A stretch of DNA of 64,000 nt from Methylosinus sp. C49 (GCF_009936375.1 NZ_AP022332.1:3380501-3444500), one strand, 5' to 3'; shown: positions 27,659 through 59,250, counted from the stretch's first letter. Notes: generated from the sequence alone by a model not told the origin. Made by a program: numbers and translations.

Positions 27659-29776
27659 TCACGCGAGATGCAGGATCGACAGGATCATGTCGATCAGCTT
27701 GATGCCGACGAAGGGAATAATGACGCCGCCGAGGCCGTAGATCAGCAGATTCCGCCGCAGCAAGGCGGCGGCGCCGATCGGCCGATAGGCGACGCCTTTC
27801 AGAGCCAGCGGGATCAGCGCGACGATGATCAGCGCGTTGAAGATCACCGCGGAGAGGATAGCCGATTGCGGCGAGACGAGCTTCATCACATTGAGCGCGC
27901 CGAGCTCTGGATAGGTCACGACGAACAGCGCCGGGATGATGGCGAAATATTTGGCGACGTCATTGGCGATGGAGAAGGTCGTCAGCGAGCCGCGCGTCAT
28001 CAGCAGCTGCTTGCCGATGGCGACGATCTCGATGAGCTTGGTCGGATCGCTGTCGAGATCGACCATATTGCCCGCCTCGCGCGCCGCTTGCGTGCCGGTC
28101 TGCATGGCGACGCCGACATCGGCCTGCGCGAGCGCCGGCGCGTCATTGGTGCCGTCGCCGCACATTGCGATGAGGCGGCCGCCCTGCTGCTCCTTGCGAA
28201 TATAGGTGAGCTTGTCCTCCGGCGTCGCCTGCGCGATGAAGTCGTCGACGCCCGCTTCCGAGGCGATGGCCGCCGCCGTGACCGGATTGTCGCCCGTCAC
28301 CATCACCGTCTTTATCCCCATGGCGCGCAGCTCGGCGAAGCGCGCCTTTATGTCGGGCTTAATGATGTCCTTCAAATGCACGACTCCGAGCAGACGGCCG
28401 TTCTCGCTGACCGCAAGCGGCGTGCCGCCGGCACGCGAGATGCGCTCCACCGCGCGCGTGAAATCCTCCGGCGCGCGTATTGGCGAGAGGGCGGCGCGCT
28501 GGAGAATTTCGGCGGCCGCGCCGCTCGCCCCTGCGCCTCCGATATCGGCGTGGTCCACGATCGATTGGGTTTGCGCGAGAATTGCGTCGACGGCGCCCTT
28601 GCGCAGCGAGCGGCCCGGCAGATCGAGGCCGGAGATTCGCGTATGCGCCGAGAAGGGAACAACGCGCGCGTCGACGCCGGTATCGGGAGCGGCGAGGCCA
28701 TAGCGGCTCTTGGCGAGCGCGACGATGGAGCGTCCCTCGGGCGTCTCATCGGCGAGAGAGGCGAGCAGCACGGCCTCCGCGAGCTCGTGCTCGCCGACGC
28801 CGCCGACGGGAATGAGCTCATCCGCCATGCGATTGCCGAATGTGATCGTGCCTGTCTTGTCGAGCAGCAACGTGTCCACGTCGCCCGCCGCCTCCACCGC
28901 GCGACCGGACGTCGCGATGACATTGAAGCGGATGAGGCGATCCATTCCTGCAATGCCGATCGCCGACAGGAGGCCGCCGATCGTCGTCGGTATCAGGCAG
29001 ACGAGCAGAGCGATGAGCACGGTGAGCGACAGCACGGTTCCCGAGTAATTGGCGAGCGGCCACAGCGTCGTGCAGACGATCAGAAAGATGATCGTCAAGC
29101 CCGACAGCAGGATCGACAGAGCGAGCTCGTTCGGAGTCTTCTGCCGCTCGGCGCCTTCGACGAGCGCGATCATGCGATCGATGAAGGTGGAGCCGGGCGC
29201 GGCGGTGATCTTCACGCGCACCCAATCGGACAGCACGGTCGTGCCGCCGGTGACGGCGGAACGATCGCCGCCCGCCTCGCGAATGACCGGCGCCGACTCG
29301 CCGGTGATCGCCGACTCGTTGACGGAAGCGACGCCTTCGACGACCTCCCCGTCGCCGGGAATGAGGTCTCCAGCTTCGACGAGCACGACGTCGCCGATCC
29401 TCAGCTCCAGCGCGGAGACGAGGTCATAGTCGTGCGATCCGCCTTTGGTTCGCTTGGCTTTCGTGTCCGTGCGCGTACGACGCAGCGCATCGGCCTGCGC
29501 CTTGCCGCGGCCTTCCGCCACGGCCTCCGCAAAATTGGCGAAGAGGACTGTGAACCACAGCCAAGCCGCGATCTGCCCAGAGAAGAGCGCGGTTCCGTCA
29601 TGCGCGAAAAGATCGCGCACGAATAAGAGCGTGACGACGGCCGAGACGGCCTCGGTGACGAAAATCACCGGATTGCGCGCCAGCTGACGCGGATCGAGCT
29701 TGATGAGAGCGTCGATCGCCGCGCGGCCGATAATGGCCCGATCGAGCAGACCAGGAGCAGCGACTTTGGACGACAT
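27659..29776 (-). CDS. kdpB: Potassium-transporting ATPase subunit B
   Basis: 705 residues, P-type ATPase. Phosphorylation site [13 protein letters not shown] (about residue 307), actuator motif TGESAP, and hinge [18 protein letters not shown]; membrane helices in the usual 2+2+3 pattern. About 25 residues longer than the E. coli protein, mostly at the N-terminus. Hydrolyses ATP to drive K+ movement through KdpA. Confidence 0.96.
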
Positions 29777-53202: not shown

Positions 53203-54843
53203 ATGACGCTGCATCTCAACCCATCCGAGACCACCGAGAGCGCCGTTCTCGACGAGGCCCATATCGGCCATATTCGCGGCGCGCTGGGCACGATCCATCA
53301 TGCCGATCACGGCCCGCGCATCGGCTTCAAGCGCCGTCTCCAGACTCTTCTCGCCATTCTCGGTCCCGGCCTCATCGTCATGGTCGGCGACAATGACGCG
53401 GGCGCCTTCGGAACTTACACTCAGGCGGGCCAGAACTACGGCACGAGCCTGCTGTGGACGCTGCTGCTGCTCGTTCCGGTTCTCTACGTCAATCAGGAGA
53501 TGGTGTTGCGGCTCGGCGCCGTCGCCGGCGTCGGACACGCAAGGCTCATCGTCGAGCGCTTCGGCAAGTTCTGGGGCGCCTTCAGCGTCATCGATCTCTT
53601 CCTGCTCAACGCGCTGACCATCGTCACCGAATTCATCGGCATATCCCTCGCGCTCTCCTATCTCGGCGTCTCGCGGGAGCTCGGCGTCGCGCTGTCGGCC
53701 GTCGTCATCATGGCGGCGGTCGGCACGGGCGACTTCCGGCGCTTCGAGCGCTTCGCTCTGATGCTTTGCGCGGGAAGCCTCGTTCTCGTTCCGATCTTCG
53801 TGATGATTCATCCGCCGATGGCGGAGGTCGCGCACGACATGTTCGTCGTGCAGCTTCCGAAGGACGGCAAGCTCAGCGAAGTGATGCTGCTGGTCATAGC
53901 GATTGTCGGCACGACCATCGCGCCCTGGCAACTCTTCTTCCAGCAGAGCTATGTGATCGACAAGCGCATCACCCCGCGCTTCATTCGTTATGAGCGCGTC
54001 GATCTCTGGCTCGGCATAGCGCTCGTCGTCATCGGCGCGGCGGCGATGACGACCTTCACGGCGGCGGTCTTCGCCGGACGTCCAGAAGCCGGCAACTTCA
54101 CCGACGCCGGCGCCGTGGCGGAGGGCTTGGGCCGATACGCCGGGCGCCTGCCGGGCATATTATTCGCTCTGGCGCTGATCGACGCGAGCGTCATCGGCGC
54201 CGCGGCGGTGTCGCTGTCCACGGCCTATGCGCTCGGCGACGTGCTGTCGCTTAAACATTCGCTGCATCGCAAGCCGTCCGACGCCAAGGGCTTCTATGGC
54301 GTCTATTTCGCGCTCATCGTCGTTTCGGCGGGCCTCGTGCTGACGCCGGGCGCGCCGCTCGGCCTGCTGACCAACGCCGTGCAGACGCTCGCCGGCGTCC
54401 TGCTGCCGAGCGCGACCGTGTTTCTGCTGCTTCTCTGCAATGACGAGGCGGTCCTCGGCCCCTGGGTCAATGGCTGGGGCATGAATCTCTTCACTGGCGC
54501 GATCGTCGCGATTCTCGTGATGCTATCGATCATTTTGACTGCTTCCGTCTTGTTTCCAGAGCAGACGAACGAGACCGTAATTCTGTGGATCCTCGGCGGC
54601 GGCTCGATCGCGACCGCGGCCATCGCCGTCGCGACGGGCAGGCTCGATACGAAGCGGCGCATAGCGCATGGCGCGATCGGCCGTCACGCCCGCGACAGCT
54701 GGCGCATGCCGCCGCTGCACAGCCTGCCGCCGGCGAAGCTCTCCATGGCGAGCCGCATATGGATGAGCGTGCTGCGCTGCTATCTTCTGCTCGCCGCAGG
54801 GCTCGTTCTCGCGCGCATCGTCACGCTCGCGGTCACACACTGA
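53203..54843 (+). CDS. NRAMP-family metal transporter, divergent type
   Basis: 546 residues, about eleven helices. Helix 1 reads GPGLIVMVGDNDAGAFGTYTQAGQNYG (Asp63-Asn64-Asp65) where typical manganese/iron NRAMPs have DPGN. Helix 6 reads TTIAPWQLFFQQS (about 238-250) where they have A-M-P-H-N, so the metal-coordinating Met is absent. This fits the NRAMP-related branch whose known members carry Mg2+ or other hard ions rather than Mn2+. N-terminus is a 45-residue polar extension; the C-terminal 45 residues are basic. Directly followed by the DMT gene with no gap. Confidence 0.85.
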   Translation: MTLHLNPSETTESAVLDEAHIGHIRGALGTIHHADHGPRIGFKRRLQTLLAILGPGLIVMVGDNDAGAFGTYTQAGQNYGTSLLWTLLLLVPVLYVNQEMVLRLGAVAGVGHARLIVERFGKFWGAFSVIDLFLLNALTIVTEFIGISLALSYLGVSRELGVALSAVVIMAAVGTGDFRRFERFALMLCAGSLVLVPIFVMIHPPMAEVAHDMFVVQLPKDGKLSEVMLLVIAIVGTTIAPWQLFFQQSYVIDKRITPRFIRYERVDLWLGIALVVIGAAAMTTFTAAVFAGRPEAGNFTDAGAVAEGLGRYAGRLPGILFALALIDASVIGAAAVSLSTAYALGDVLSLKHSLHRKPSDAKGFYGVYFALIVVSAGLVLTPGAPLGLLTNAVQTLAGVLLPSATVFLLLLCNDEAVLGPWVNGWGMNLFTGAIVAILVMLSIILTASVLFPEQTNETVILWILGGGSIATAAIAVATGRLDTKRRIAHGAIGRHARDSWRMPPLHSLPPAKLSMASRIWMSVLRCYLLLAAGLVLARIVTLAVTH

Positions 54844-55914
54844 ATGTCTGCGCCAAACATGAAAGCAAAAGCCATATCCTACGCGCTGCTCTCGGCGGCT
54901 CTGTTCGGGGTCTCGACGCCGGCCGCCAAGCTGCTTCTCGCGGACATAGATCAGCGCATCCTCGCCGGCCTGCTCTATTGCGGCGCCGGCGTCGGCGTCG
55001 CTCTGCTGCGCCGTCTCCCGCTTCGGCTCGGCTTCGCCATCCGCGCGGAAGAGGCGACGCTCGCCGGGTCGGATTGGGCGTGGATGGGAGCGGCGACTCT
55101 GGCGGGCGGCGTCGCCGGCCCTTTGCTGCTGATGTTCGGCCTCGCCCATTCGGAAGCCGCGACGGCCTCATTGCTGCTCACGCTCGAGGGCGTCTTCACC
55201 GCGGCCATCGCATGGTTCGTGTTTCGCGAGCCTTTCGATCGTCGCATCGCCCTCGGCATGGCTTTCATCGTCGCAGGATCGCTCTGCCTCGCCTGGTCGG
55301 GAGCGCCGAGCCTCTCCGGCGCACTCGGGCCTCTCGCGATCGCGGCGGCCTGCCTCGCCTGGGCGGTCGACAACAACCTCACACGAAGAGTCTCTCTCTC
55401 CGATCCGCTGCAAATCGTCGAGATCAAGGGTATGGTCGGCGGCGCGGTCAATCTCGGACTTGGGTTATTCGCCGGCGCTCATCTGCCTGCCATCCCGCTG
55501 ATCGGCGCGGCGAGCGTCGTCGGCTTCCTCGGCTATGGCCTCAGCCTGGCGCTGTTCGTTCTGGCCCTCCGCCATCTCGGCACGGCGCGCACCGGCGCCT
55601 ATTTCTCCACGGCTCCCTTTCTCGGCGCCGCGGTCTCCGTCGCGGCGCTCGGCGACCCCTTGACGATGGAACTCGCCGCCGGAGCGGCGCTGATGGGCGC
55701 GGGCGTCTGGCTGCATCTGACCGAAAGCCACGAGCACGAGCATTTGCACCAAGCCGTCGAACATTCGCATTCGCATGTTCATGACGGACATCATCGGCAT
55801 GGAGACCACTCCGATCATGAGAACGGCCAGCCGCACATACATTGGCACGCGCACGAGCCGCTGCTGCACGCGCATCCTCATATGCCCGACACGCATCACC
55901 GACACGATCATTGA
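54844..55914 (+). CDS. DMT/EamA permease with histidine-rich tail
   Basis: 356 residues. Ten helices in two EamA repeats (ALLSAALFGVSTPAAKLLL near the start). From about residue 298 the tail is packed with His, Glu and Asp (HEHEHLHQAVEHSHSHVHDGHHRHGDH…), some 25 His in 60 residues, expected in the cytoplasm or periplasm as a metal store. The ATG follows the NRAMP stop directly. His-rich tails are known in Ni/Co/Zn transporters and chaperones, so a metal or metal-complex exporter is likely, but the DMT family usually handles metabolites. Confidence 0.85.
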   Translation: MSAPNMKAKAISYALLSAALFGVSTPAAKLLLADIDQRILAGLLYCGAGVGVALLRRLPLRLGFAIRAEEATLAGSDWAWMGAATLAGGVAGPLLLMFGLAHSEAATASLLLTLEGVFTAAIAWFVFREPFDRRIALGMAFIVAGSLCLAWSGAPSLSGALGPLAIAAACLAWAVDNNLTRRVSLSDPLQIVEIKGMVGGAVNLGLGLFAGAHLPAIPLIGAASVVGFLGYGLSLALFVLALRHLGTARTGAYFSTAPFLGAAVSVAALGDPLTMELAAGAALMGAGVWLHLTESHEHEHLHQAVEHSHSHVHDGHHRHGDHSDHENGQPHIHWHAHEPLLHAHPHMPDTHHRHDH

Positions 55915-55974: not shown

Positions 55975-58900
55975 ATGAGTTCGACGGCAAAGGGGCGAAT
56001 CTGGCGCCGGATGCTGATCCTGCTCGCCTCCGCCGCTCTCGCGGCGGGGCTTTGCGCCGCCTTTTTCGGCCGCCCGGATCTGGCCCGATGGACTTGGGCG
56101 GCGGGCACGGTTCCGGTCGCTGCGAGCCTCGCTGTCTCGATCGCCCGTGATTTGCTCGCCGGGCGAGCCGGCGTCGACGTGATCGCGCTTCTCTCCATGT
56201 CGGCGGCGCTGGCGCTCGGCGAAGCTTTGGCGGCGGCGATCGTCGCGGTAATGTACGCGGGCGGCAGCGTCATCGAAGATCTGGCGGTCGGTCGCGCCGA
56301 ACGCGACCTGAAAGCGCTGATCGATCGCGCACCGCGCATCGCTCACCGCCGGATCGACGACAGGATCGAGGACGTCCCGATCGATAATGTCGCAGTCGGG
56401 GATCTTCTGCTGGTCCGAGCCGGCGAGGTCGTGCCGACGGATGGCCGGATCGTCGGAGCGAATGCGCTGCTCGACGAGTCGGCGGTGACAGGCGAGCCGC
56501 TTCCGGTCGTGAGACGCAATGGAGAAGCGGCCTCGAGCGGAACGGTCAACGCCGGCGAGACATTCGAGATGGAGGCGACCGCCGCACCGGGCGAAAGCGC
56601 CTATGCCGGGATCGTCGAGCTCGCGACCGCCGCGCAGACAGCGAAAGCTCCGTTCATCAGAATGGCGGATCGCTATGCGCTGCTGTTCTTGCCCGTGACC
56701 CTGCTGGCGGCGGGCGCCGCCTGGGCGCTTTCGCAGGATCCTATTCGCGGCTTGGCGGTGCTGGTCGCCGCCACGCCCTGTCCTTTGATTCTCGCGGCGC
56801 CGGCGGCCTTCGTCGCTGGCGCCTCGCGCGCCGCGCGACGCGGCGTCCTGATCAAAGGCGGCGGGCCGCTGGAGGCGCTCGCGCGAACGCATACGGTGAT
56901 GTTCGACAAGACCGGCACGCTCACGGTCGGCGGCGCACGTCTCGTCGCGATAGAAACGGGGCCGGACCATGACGCGAACGAAGCCTTGCGGCTCGCCGCA
57001 TCGCTCGAGCAGGCGTCCCATCATGTCGTCGCCGCCGCCATCGTCGCCGCGGCGTCGGAGAGAGGCCTCTCTCTGCACATTCCGACCGAGGTCCGCGAGA
57101 CGTTCGGAACCGGGATCGCGGGAAAGGTCGACGGGCGCGACATTCGCGTCGGCGCTCTGCAATTCGTGCAGGGCGACGAAGAACTCGAGGATTGGGCCGC
57201 GCGCGCCGCCCGCCGCGCGTCCTGGCGCTCCGCGCTCACCGTCTTCGTCTCGTCGAACGGGCGCCTCATCGCCGTCCTCCTTCTCGCCGACGCGCTTCGG
57301 CGCGAGACGCCGCGCGCAATCCAGGCGCTACGCGATGCGGGCGTCGATCGAATCGTCATGGTCACAGGCGATCGCGCCGACGCCGCCGAAACGATCGGCG
57401 CGGCGCTCGATCTCGACGCGGTCCTCGCCGACCGAATCCCTTCCGACAAGGTGGACGCCGTCGCGATCGAGCGACGCCTCCATCCGACGCTGATGGTCGG
57501 CGACGGAATTAATGACGCTCCGGCTCTGGCCGCCGCGGATGTCGGCGTCGCCATGGGCGCGCGCGGCGCGAGCGCGTCCTCCGAGGCGGCGGATGTCGTC
57601 ATTCTCGTCGATCGGCTGGATCGCGTCTCGGAGGCAGTGGCGATCGCGCGCCGAACCCGCCTCATCGCGCTGCAGAGCATCATCGCCGGAATGACTCTGT
57701 CCTTCGCGACGATGGGAGCGGCGGCCTTCGGCTGGATCGGCCCTGTGGGCGGCGCGCTGATACAAGAGGCGATCGACATCGCCGTCATCCTGAACGCTCT
57801 GCGGGCGCTCGGCGGCGGCTCGACCTTGCTTCGGCGTCCTCTGCCAGAGACGGCGACGCGGGCGTTGCGCGAAGATCACGAGAAGATCGAGCAGAGCCTC
57901 GATCGCCTGCGGCAGATCGCCGATGCGTTGGACGCGGCCTCACCGCGACGCGCATCCGAACATATAGACGAAGCCGATCGTCTGGTCGCGGACGTCATAT
58001 TGGTGCACGAGCGCGACGACGAGAGCGACATTTATCCGCGCATCTCGCATTATCTTCCGAGCGGGCAAGGGCTCGGCGCCATGAGCCGTGCGCATCGAGA
58101 GATCCACCATCAGGCAAGGCTGCTGGCGCGCCTCGCCGAGGGGCTGCGCTCGCACGAGCCGGACAAATATCTGATCCGCGACGCGCAGAGGATCATCGAA
58201 GCGATCGAGACTCTCGTTCGAGTCCATAATGCGCAGGAGGAGGACGTCTATGAGCAGGCCGCGTCGGAATTCAGCGGGAGCGGATCGCTCCGAAAGCTGC
58301 AGACGCGCAAATCCGAAGCGGCTTCCGCTTTTGATCGCGCCATAGGCTCGGCGTCTCGCGCAAGAGGCGTTGGACGAACGGCTTTCGCGACGCTGGCGGC
58401 TCTCGCAATCCTCCTCGGAGGCGGATGGCTCCACTTCCGATGGGAGCGCAATGCGCCGCGAGACGGCGTGACGGCCACAGGCGTTGTAGAGGCGACGAAC
58501 GCCACGCCGATCTCCACACGCTTATCGGGGACCATCCGAGCCGTCTATTGTGACGTCGGCACAAAAGTGACGGCGGGCCAGATTTGCTCCGAGATCGATC
58601 CGCAGCCTTACCGCGCCGCCGTCGAGCAAGCAAAAGCCGATCTCGCTCTCGCCGACGTCCGCCTCGAAACGGCCAGAGCCGCCCTCGCCCGGATGGAAAA
58701 GCGGCTCGAGCGCCAACGAGCCGAGGCGGATCATGGAGCCTTGTCGAAAAAGACGCTCGCCCGATCCGAGGTCGCTCTTTCCCGCGCGCGAGCGCGAGCG
58801 GATCAGGAAGAAGCCTCGCGCACTTTGCGCCGAACTCAGTTGAGCGAAGCCGAAGAGTATTTGGCGCAGACCGCCGTGGCTGTGACAGTCGACGGGATGG

Positions 58901-59250
58901 TGATCGCGCGCGAGGCGAAAGTCGGCCATACGATCGACGCGCGAGAGACGCCTGCGCGACTGTTCACGATCGCGACCGATCTCAGCGTCGTCGAGATCAT
59001 CGTCACTATACATTCCAGCGAACTGCGACAACCGAGGATCGGCAGTCAGGTCGCTTTCAGCGTCGTTTCTCTGCCAGGGCGCGCATTCTCGGGAATCGTC
59101 GAGCAAGTTTCACGTTCGACCCCGGATGCCGACCACGCTTCGACGTATCGTGTCGTCATAGAAGCGTTCAATCCCGATCTGCTGCTGCGACCGGGCATGG
59201 TCGCGACGCTCATGATCCACGATTTCGTCGCCGTAATGACGCCCAGGTAA
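55975..59250 (+). CDS. Fusion: P1B-5-type ATPase, hemerythrin domain, membrane-fusion domain
   Basis: 1091 residues in one uninterrupted frame. (1) About 1-620: P1B ATPase without an N-terminal metal-binding domain; TPCP in the ion-path helix (267-270), DKTGT (311-315), GDGIND (from 509) and QEAIDIAVILNALR in the last helix, the pattern of subgroup P1B-5 (Nia of Sinorhizobium). The usual HP dipeptide reads SHHVVA. (2) About 631-760: HHE hemerythrin domain (EDHEKIEQ, VHERDDESDIYP, AHREIHHQ, VHNAQEEDVYEQ). (3) About 804-1091: a new membrane helix and a HlyD/MacA-type adaptor (VTATGVVEATNATPISTRLSGTIRAVYCDVG, coiled coil, beta-barrel). Parts 1 and 2 are known together; part 3 is, to my knowledge, not. 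Ni/Fe is likely for the metal. Confidence 0.9.
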   Translation: MSSTAKGRIWRRMLILLASAALAAGLCAAFFGRPDLARWTWAAGTVPVAASLAVSIARDLLAGRAGVDVIALLSMSAALALGEALAAAIVAVMYAGGSVIEDLAVGRAERDLKALIDRAPRIAHRRIDDRIEDVPIDNVAVGDLLLVRAGEVVPTDGRIVGANALLDESAVTGEPLPVVRRNGEAASSGTVNAGETFEMEATAAPGESAYAGIVELATAAQTAKAPFIRMADRYALLFLPVTLLAAGAAWALSQDPIRGLAVLVAATPCPLILAAPAAFVAGASRAARRGVLIKGGGPLEALARTHTVMFDKTGTLTVGGARLVAIETGPDHDANEALRLAASLEQASHHVVAAAIVAAASERGLSLHIPTEVRETFGTGIAGKVDGRDIRVGALQFVQGDEELEDWAARAARRASWRSALTVFVSSNGRLIAVLLLADALRRETPRAIQALRDAGVDRIVMVTGDRADAAETIGAALDLDAVLADRIPSDKVDAVAIERRLHPTLMVGDGINDAPALAAADVGVAMGARGASASSEAADVVILVDRLDRVSEAVAIARRTRLIALQSIIAGMTLSFATMGAAAFGWIGPVGGALIQEAIDIAVILNALRALGGGSTLLRRPLPETATRALREDHEKIEQSLDRLRQIADALDAASPRRASEHIDEADRLVADVILVHERDDESDIYPRISHYLPSGQGLGAMSRAHREIHHQARLLARLAEGLRSHEPDKYLIRDAQRIIEAIETLVRVHNAQEEDVYEQAASEFSGSGSLRKLQTRKSEAASAFDRAIGSASRARGVGRTAFATLAALAILLGGGWLHFRWERNAPRDGVTATGVVEATNATPISTRLSGTIRAVYCDVGTKVTAGQICSEIDPQPYRAAVEQAKADLALADVRLETARAALARMEKRLERQRAEADHGALSKKTLARSEVALSRARARADQEEASRTLRRTQLSEAEEYLAQTAVAVTVDGMVIAREAKVGHTIDARETPARLFTIATDLSVVEIIVTIHSSELRQPRIGSQVAFSVVSLPGRAFSGIVEQVSRSTPDADHASTYRVVIEAFNPDLLLRPGMVATLMIHDFVAVMTPR

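Follow-up and report, generated by a model that had tools for sequence, protein, structure and literature searches.

The locus raises the question of what a periplasmic adaptor is doing at the end of a metal-transporting P-type ATPase. The window, which is the whole 64,000-nucleotide stretch of Methylosinus sp. C49 DNA that was analysed, carries at 55975-59250 (+ strand) a single uninterrupted frame of 1091 amino acids running from an ATG start to a stop codon. The original prediction had placed an ATPase, a hemerythrin (HHE) domain, an extra helix and an adaptor in this one frame, and domain searches agree. Using hmmscan, the E1-E2 ATPase domain (Pfam, residues 119-289, 4e-43), a HAD hydrolase domain, hemerythrin (PF01814, residues 627-760, 3e-10, above cut-off) and HlyD_D23 (residues 832-1077, 1e-14) were found in this order along the translated chain, and the NCBIfam heavy-metal P-type ATPase model TIGR01525 matched residues 67-610 with 501 bits against a cut-off of 346. 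A predicted structure of the whole chain (mean pLDDT 77.9) displays the ATPase, a four-helix bundle (625-763), a low-confidence linker (765-797), a helix (798-821) and the adaptor from residue 831. The domain order of P1B-5 ATPase, hemerythrin domain, extra membrane helix and MacA-type periplasmic adaptor is close to certain, with the parts located as follows:

55975..59250, + strand: whole fusion gene, ATG-to-stop open frame, 1091 codons plus stop
55975..57810, + strand: P1B-5 ATPase part, residues 1-612 (TIGR01525, Pfam, predicted model)
57847..58266, + strand: hemerythrin (HHE) domain, residues 625-764 (Pfam, alignment, four-helix bundle in the model)
58267..58365, + strand: flexible linker, residues 765-797 (pLDDT below 50)
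58366..58437, + strand: extra transmembrane helix, residues 798-821 (hydrophobic stretch, model), aligning with the N-terminal helix region of MacA
58465..59220, + strand: MacA-type adaptor (lipoyl, hairpin, beta-barrel), residues 831-1082 (Pfam; PDB sequence and fold matches to MacA)

The pump was assigned to the P1B-5 group as it contains both the P-type core (DKTGT, TGE loop, GDGxND) and the TPCP, QE..D and N.LR signatures. In an alignment with 26 relatives, TPCP, DKTGT, GDGIND (residues 509-514), QEAID and NALR are all invariant or nearly so:

56773..56784, + strand: TPCP metal-site motif, residues 267-270, invariant in the 26 relatives
56905..56919, + strand: DKTGT phosphorylation motif, residues 311-315
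57763..57804, + strand: QEAID (597-601) to NALR (607-610), last transmembrane helix of the pump

The replacement of the HP dipeptide by HH, as first described, was placed one position off: the dipeptide is indeed altered, but its His (H350) is invariant and it is the Pro that has become Val (V351), a change found throughout the subfamily, with H349 aligning to the position of a Glu in other P1B pumps. Genes on Sinorhizobium meliloti pSymA, presumably Nia, match residues 32-765 at 48.5% identity, and this match and the TPCP, DKTGT, QEAID and NALR motifs support the identification of the protein as a P1B-5/Nia-type pump with a cytoplasmic hemerythrin domain. The hemerythrin residues H635, H678, H707-x-E709, H751 and E755 are invariant in the same alignment; the HxE spacing matches that reported for P1B-5 hemerythrins, with the ligand spacing at H678 and H751 slightly off the published H-HxxxE-HxE-HxxxxD-like pattern (PMC9388753). 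Nia is reported to take part in the transport of Ni and Fe, with the choice between iron and oxygen sensing by hemerythrin left undecided (PMC9388753). P1B-5 ATPases such as S. meliloti Nia share with the window's protein the pump type, motifs, hemerythrin part and HxE diiron spacing; however, they end after hemerythrin, whereas the window's protein continues with a helix and a periplasmic adaptor. A second P-type ATPase in the window (about 27998-29551, - strand, open frame of 711 aa) is 31-38% identical to this pump.

The whole three-part frame recurs without stops in five copies from four other genomes of the same genus (Methylosinus-like; 96, 91, 69, 68 and 60% identity) and, at about 61% identity, in Methylocapsa acidiphila B2, Methylocapsa aurea KYG and a Methylocapsa MAG, with more copies of the fusion frame in Methylocapsa (L136) and Methylocystis (L140, L142 and L114). 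Chance joining with a neighbouring frame is ruled out by this recurrence in three genera. It is extremely improbable that a sequencing or assembly error near 58300-58400 fused two genes: the junction is open in independent genomes from the three genera, and RefSeq annotates a 1172-codon P2A fusion of Methylocystis rosea GW6 as one protein (WP_245434982.1). Nothing in support of such an error was found, the one frameshift, on a Methylocapsa polymorpha plasmid, lying inside the ATPase and away from the junction. The intact orthologues thus refute an error at the junction at the sequence level, and the frame across 58250-58450, which had been singled out for confirmation, is uninterrupted. Orthologues in Bradyrhizobium, Hyphomicrobium, Methylocella, Rhodovulum and others end past the hemerythrin domain at about residue 765, as do the Sinorhizobium matches, indicating that a Nia-type pump gained the adaptor within this family.

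The adaptor is not confined to this pump, which the original prediction could not see; a profile search combined with host classification revealed several hosts. The adaptor profile was searched against 298 genomes of Beijerinckiaceae (43 genera), a few candidates per genome being scored, and the matches listed include at the least many open frames of 850-1630 residues with the adaptor. The hosts, classed by Pfam, NCBIfam and motifs (partly by motifs alone, with representatives checked against profiles), are P1B-5 ATPases with hemerythrin, P2A (Ca-type) and P3A (H+) ATPases, the alpha subunit of an alternate F1Fo-ATPase and CyoD of cytochrome bo3; P3A hosts score above the H+-ATPase cut-off and F1 alpha hosts above their own. 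The 58 fused adaptors used for tree building comprise 28 on P2A, 14 on P1B-5, 8 on CyoD, 3 on P3A, 2 on F1 alpha, 2 on four-helix proteins and 1 on AHSA1. The window's genome itself encodes a second fusion, a P2A-type ATPase with an adaptor (1251 aa), and the two adaptors are 40% identical over 250 residues. Representative loci are:

L009:4459-8214 (own contig C1, about 2278458-2282213): P2A-type ATPase-adaptor fusion of the window's genome, 1251 aa, downstream of a two-component system
L104:8233-10743 and L138:6294-8864: alternate F1Fo-ATPase alpha, membrane helix and adaptor, with gamma directly downstream in the alternate ATPase operon
L143:5785-7143, L148:4940-6508, L121:7784-9646, L159:5626-6906 and L160:5603-7066: CyoD (bo3 oxidase subunit IV)-adaptor fusions
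L145:1211-2656 and L146:5383-6930: four-helix membrane protein-adaptor fusions, first part without a Pfam match
L156:5097-6560: AHSA1 (SRPBCC) domain-adaptor fusion, adjoined by an ABC transporter gene
L217:8899-12473: one of the 14 P1B-5 cases, on Methylocapsa polymorpha pRX1, frameshifted inside the ATPase, with the adaptor part alone annotated

The P2A, P3A, N-type F1Fo-ATPase and bo3 oxidase hosts of Methylocystis, Methylosinus and Methylocapsa carry the same C-terminal module on one subunit, but belong to other pump families and move substrates other than transition metals. The C-terminus is cytoplasmic in P-type ATPases and in F1 alpha, and that of CyoD is periplasmic in E. coli. A hydrophobic helix precedes the adaptor in the P-type ATPase and F1 alpha fusions checked; in the CyoD fusions, which contain a COX4_pro domain and are adjoined by COX1, the adaptor follows directly behind the third helix with no helix added. 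By this topology logic the adaptor would lie on the periplasmic side in these hosts, because a helix is added only where the host C-terminus is cytoplasmic.

A tree of 76 adaptors, built by a quick method and with several long branches, placed nearly all fused adaptors on one branch (SH-aLRT 92), beside MacB-linked MacA of the Cys type, with one long-branched P3A fused adaptor outside it, and 14 host changes were counted on the adaptor tree. On a single contig of one Methylocapsa genome, a P2A and a P1B-5 pump have 1,162 bp in common at 98.2% identity:

L135:8946-10107 and L136:9338-10499: helix-plus-adaptor cassette copies with sharp ends, 98.2% identity

The block starts just ahead of the helix, and its far end lies inside the P2A stop codon; lacking that stop, the P1B-5 gene reads 18 residues further, and no similarity between the two loci was found outside the 1,162 bp. 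The module therefore moves as a cassette, and the fused adaptors are of common MacA origin.

Among the matches listed, all long fused frames fall in 3 of the 43 Beijerinckiaceae genera sampled, and matches to pmoA (PF02461; 40 of the 298 genomes) fall in exactly the same three; at least 30 genomes have the fusion, 29 of them with a pmoA match, although three genera represent few independent events. Methylocella lacks pMMO (PMC7660913), and at the Methylocella loci seen the pump is present and the module absent. Outside the family, setting aside two frames at phylum level (931 and 971 residues), no adaptor fusion of this kind was found at E <= 1e-40 among 397 genomes of the order and 398 of the phylum, a search that scored few candidates per genome and that rare cases could escape; likewise no P1B-5 pump with an adaptor was found among 385 class genomes, where few candidates were scored per genome and rare cases could again escape. 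Adaptor matches outside the family lie at G942:C3:699472-700239 (L195), in a 971-aa frame, and at G891:C1:2758308-2759213, in a 931-aa frame.

The module is MacA both by sequence profile (E 3e-51) and by fold in PDB comparisons, with the lipoyl, hairpin and beta-barrel arrangement, and the Methylocapsa copies carry an extra C-terminal stretch that the Methylosinus copies do not. It has the sequence profile, fold, hairpin and N-terminal membrane helix in common with MacA of MacAB-TolC, but it is fused behind a pump, has no adjoining MacB and its docking tip is degenerate. No ABC gene was seen beside the fusion genes at the loci inspected, and no free copy of the adaptor subfamily was found in the window's genome at E <= 1e-20, which weakens, for this genome, the idea that the fused module joins a free MacA. 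Two features within the adaptor bear on its function:

58549..58587, + strand: codons of Cys859 and Cys871, the lipoyl-domain Cys pair
58603..58866, + strand: helical hairpin, residues 877-964; tip RQRAEADHGALS degenerate, with Glu replacing the docking Leu

The original prediction had the pump handing its metal through the adaptor to an outer-membrane channel, as a P-type tripartite exporter. In favour of this, the adaptor resembles MacA and has a hairpin, roughly a dozen outer-membrane factors encoded elsewhere in the genome could act in trans, and the window's tip RQRAEADHGALS keeps the R and S of the docking motif; most of the evidence nevertheless makes this conduit unlikely. TolC docking by MacA, AcrA and HlyD requires the tip motif RxxxLxxxxxxS/T (PMC3391258), and in the window's tip the Leu is gone. 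The docking Arg and Leu are kept together in 44 of 46 MacB-linked adaptors (11/12 of the Cys type and 33/34 of the others) but in only 8 of 57 fused modules, 17 of which have gaps at the tip, and the full motif is still present in 4/57 fused tips. The loss of Arg and Leu within the Cys type gives a Fisher p of 4e-7, a statistic that ignores relatedness, and as the fused adaptors share most of their ancestry this is one contrast on the tree.

Selection on the parts points the same way. In close pairs (the window against its two closest copies, and L043 against L044), dN/dS ranges over 0.06-0.17 in the ATPase and 0.09-0.16 in hemerythrin, against 0.28-0.38 in lipoyl plus barrel and 0.46-1.1 in the hairpin, which is the least constrained part in these close comparisons. 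In the most distant pair, the window against L044, the values are 0.19, 0.14, 0.41 and 0.39, respectively, the hairpin not being distinct where its synonymous sites are near saturation. No outer-membrane factor was recognised beside the gene in 14 loci (neighbours clustered and read by eye), and the conduit is further weakened because the module is also built into proton pumps, F1Fo and an oxidase, and on proton pumps and F1 alpha an outer-membrane conduit makes little sense. The genes that do precede the fusion are:

53203..54843, + strand: Nramp-type metal transporter, upstream, kept in three genomes
54844..55914, + strand: EamA/DMT transporter, directly upstream, with an unusually His-rich C-terminal tail of ~60 residues, kept in three genomes

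The pair of Nramp and His-rich DMT transporters fits divalent-metal handling.

Because constraint on the adaptor module is lower than on the pump, the module may play a minor part. At the extreme, it would be a recombining MacA cassette that hitch-hikes on membrane proteins with a tolerant C-terminus and has little or no function, a picture that the variety of its hosts, its recent copying from pump to pump, its fast evolution and its variable tips might suggest. We regard this as quite improbable, since lipoyl plus barrel are under purifying selection over all pairs (dN/dS 0.28-0.41), the frame has been kept across deep divergence, and most hosts are primary ion pumps of three genera, not membrane proteins at large.

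The Cys pair offers another reading, in which the lipoyl domain and its cysteines would sense redox state or metal in the periplasm, or would dock a periplasmic metallochaperone, giving feedback on each pump. Cys859 and Cys871, on neighbouring strands in the predicted model, are present in 58/58 fused adaptors, and all fused hosts are membrane or energy proteins. The nearest free relatives, which adjoin MacB-like ABC transporters, already carry the pair, however, so that its arising with the fusion is ruled out, and other metal ligands do not stand out; we consider a sensor or docking site unlikely.

The reading we prefer, with a probability of about 0.5, is a P1B-5 pump with a cytoplasmic diiron sensor and a grafted MacA-derived cassette acting as an oligomerising periplasmic platform that clusters or regulates pumps. 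The ATPase would move Fe/Ni/Co-type ions, as predicted from its family, into the periplasm, and the cytoplasmic diiron hemerythrin domain would gate it by iron or oxygen. MacA is a hexamer. The periplasmic lipoyl and beta-barrel part would oligomerise and, instead of docking to TolC, gather pumps into clusters at the surface of the membrane or tune them, a role suggested because the ring-forming part of MacA is conserved and the TolC-touching part lost; taken alone, the platform role has about one chance in three. More tentatively, and as a possibility we rate lower, in pMMO-bearing alphaproteobacterial methanotrophs one MacA-derived module may couple unrelated primary ion pumps (P-type, F-type and heme-copper oxidase) into mixed assemblies in the periplasm, which would organise the energised (possibly intracytoplasmic) membrane or co-regulate it, with recombination keeping the module circulating.

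Adaptors of the MacA class are known to work with ABC, RND and MFS exporters. The accessible part of a large 2021 review makes no mention of P-type ATPases as adaptor partners, and no description of the adaptor-ATPase fusion or of the shared module was found in the open-access papers searched. Database labels cover single domains: the 1172-codon Methylocystis rosea GW6 fusion is named 'HAD-IC family P-type ATPase', and the distal part of the Methylocapsa polymorpha pRX1 copy 'efflux RND transporter periplasmic adaptor subunit'. Every part is known singly; it is the three-part combination, and the module shared across pumps, that were not found described. For P1B-5 pumps the fusion raises the question of what a periplasmic appendage does for a metal exporter, and the copying of the cassette between pumps offers a recent and clear-cut case of domain grafting in nature. 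A module shared across pump superfamilies may, if functional, deserve more than the status of a variant. Its presence in metal, Ca-type and H+-ATPases, F1 alpha and a quinol oxidase suggests a job for the adaptor fold beyond the joining of pumps to TolC, and its restriction to three genera, all of them pmoA-bearing, may point to a tie with methane oxidation or with the membrane system that serves it.
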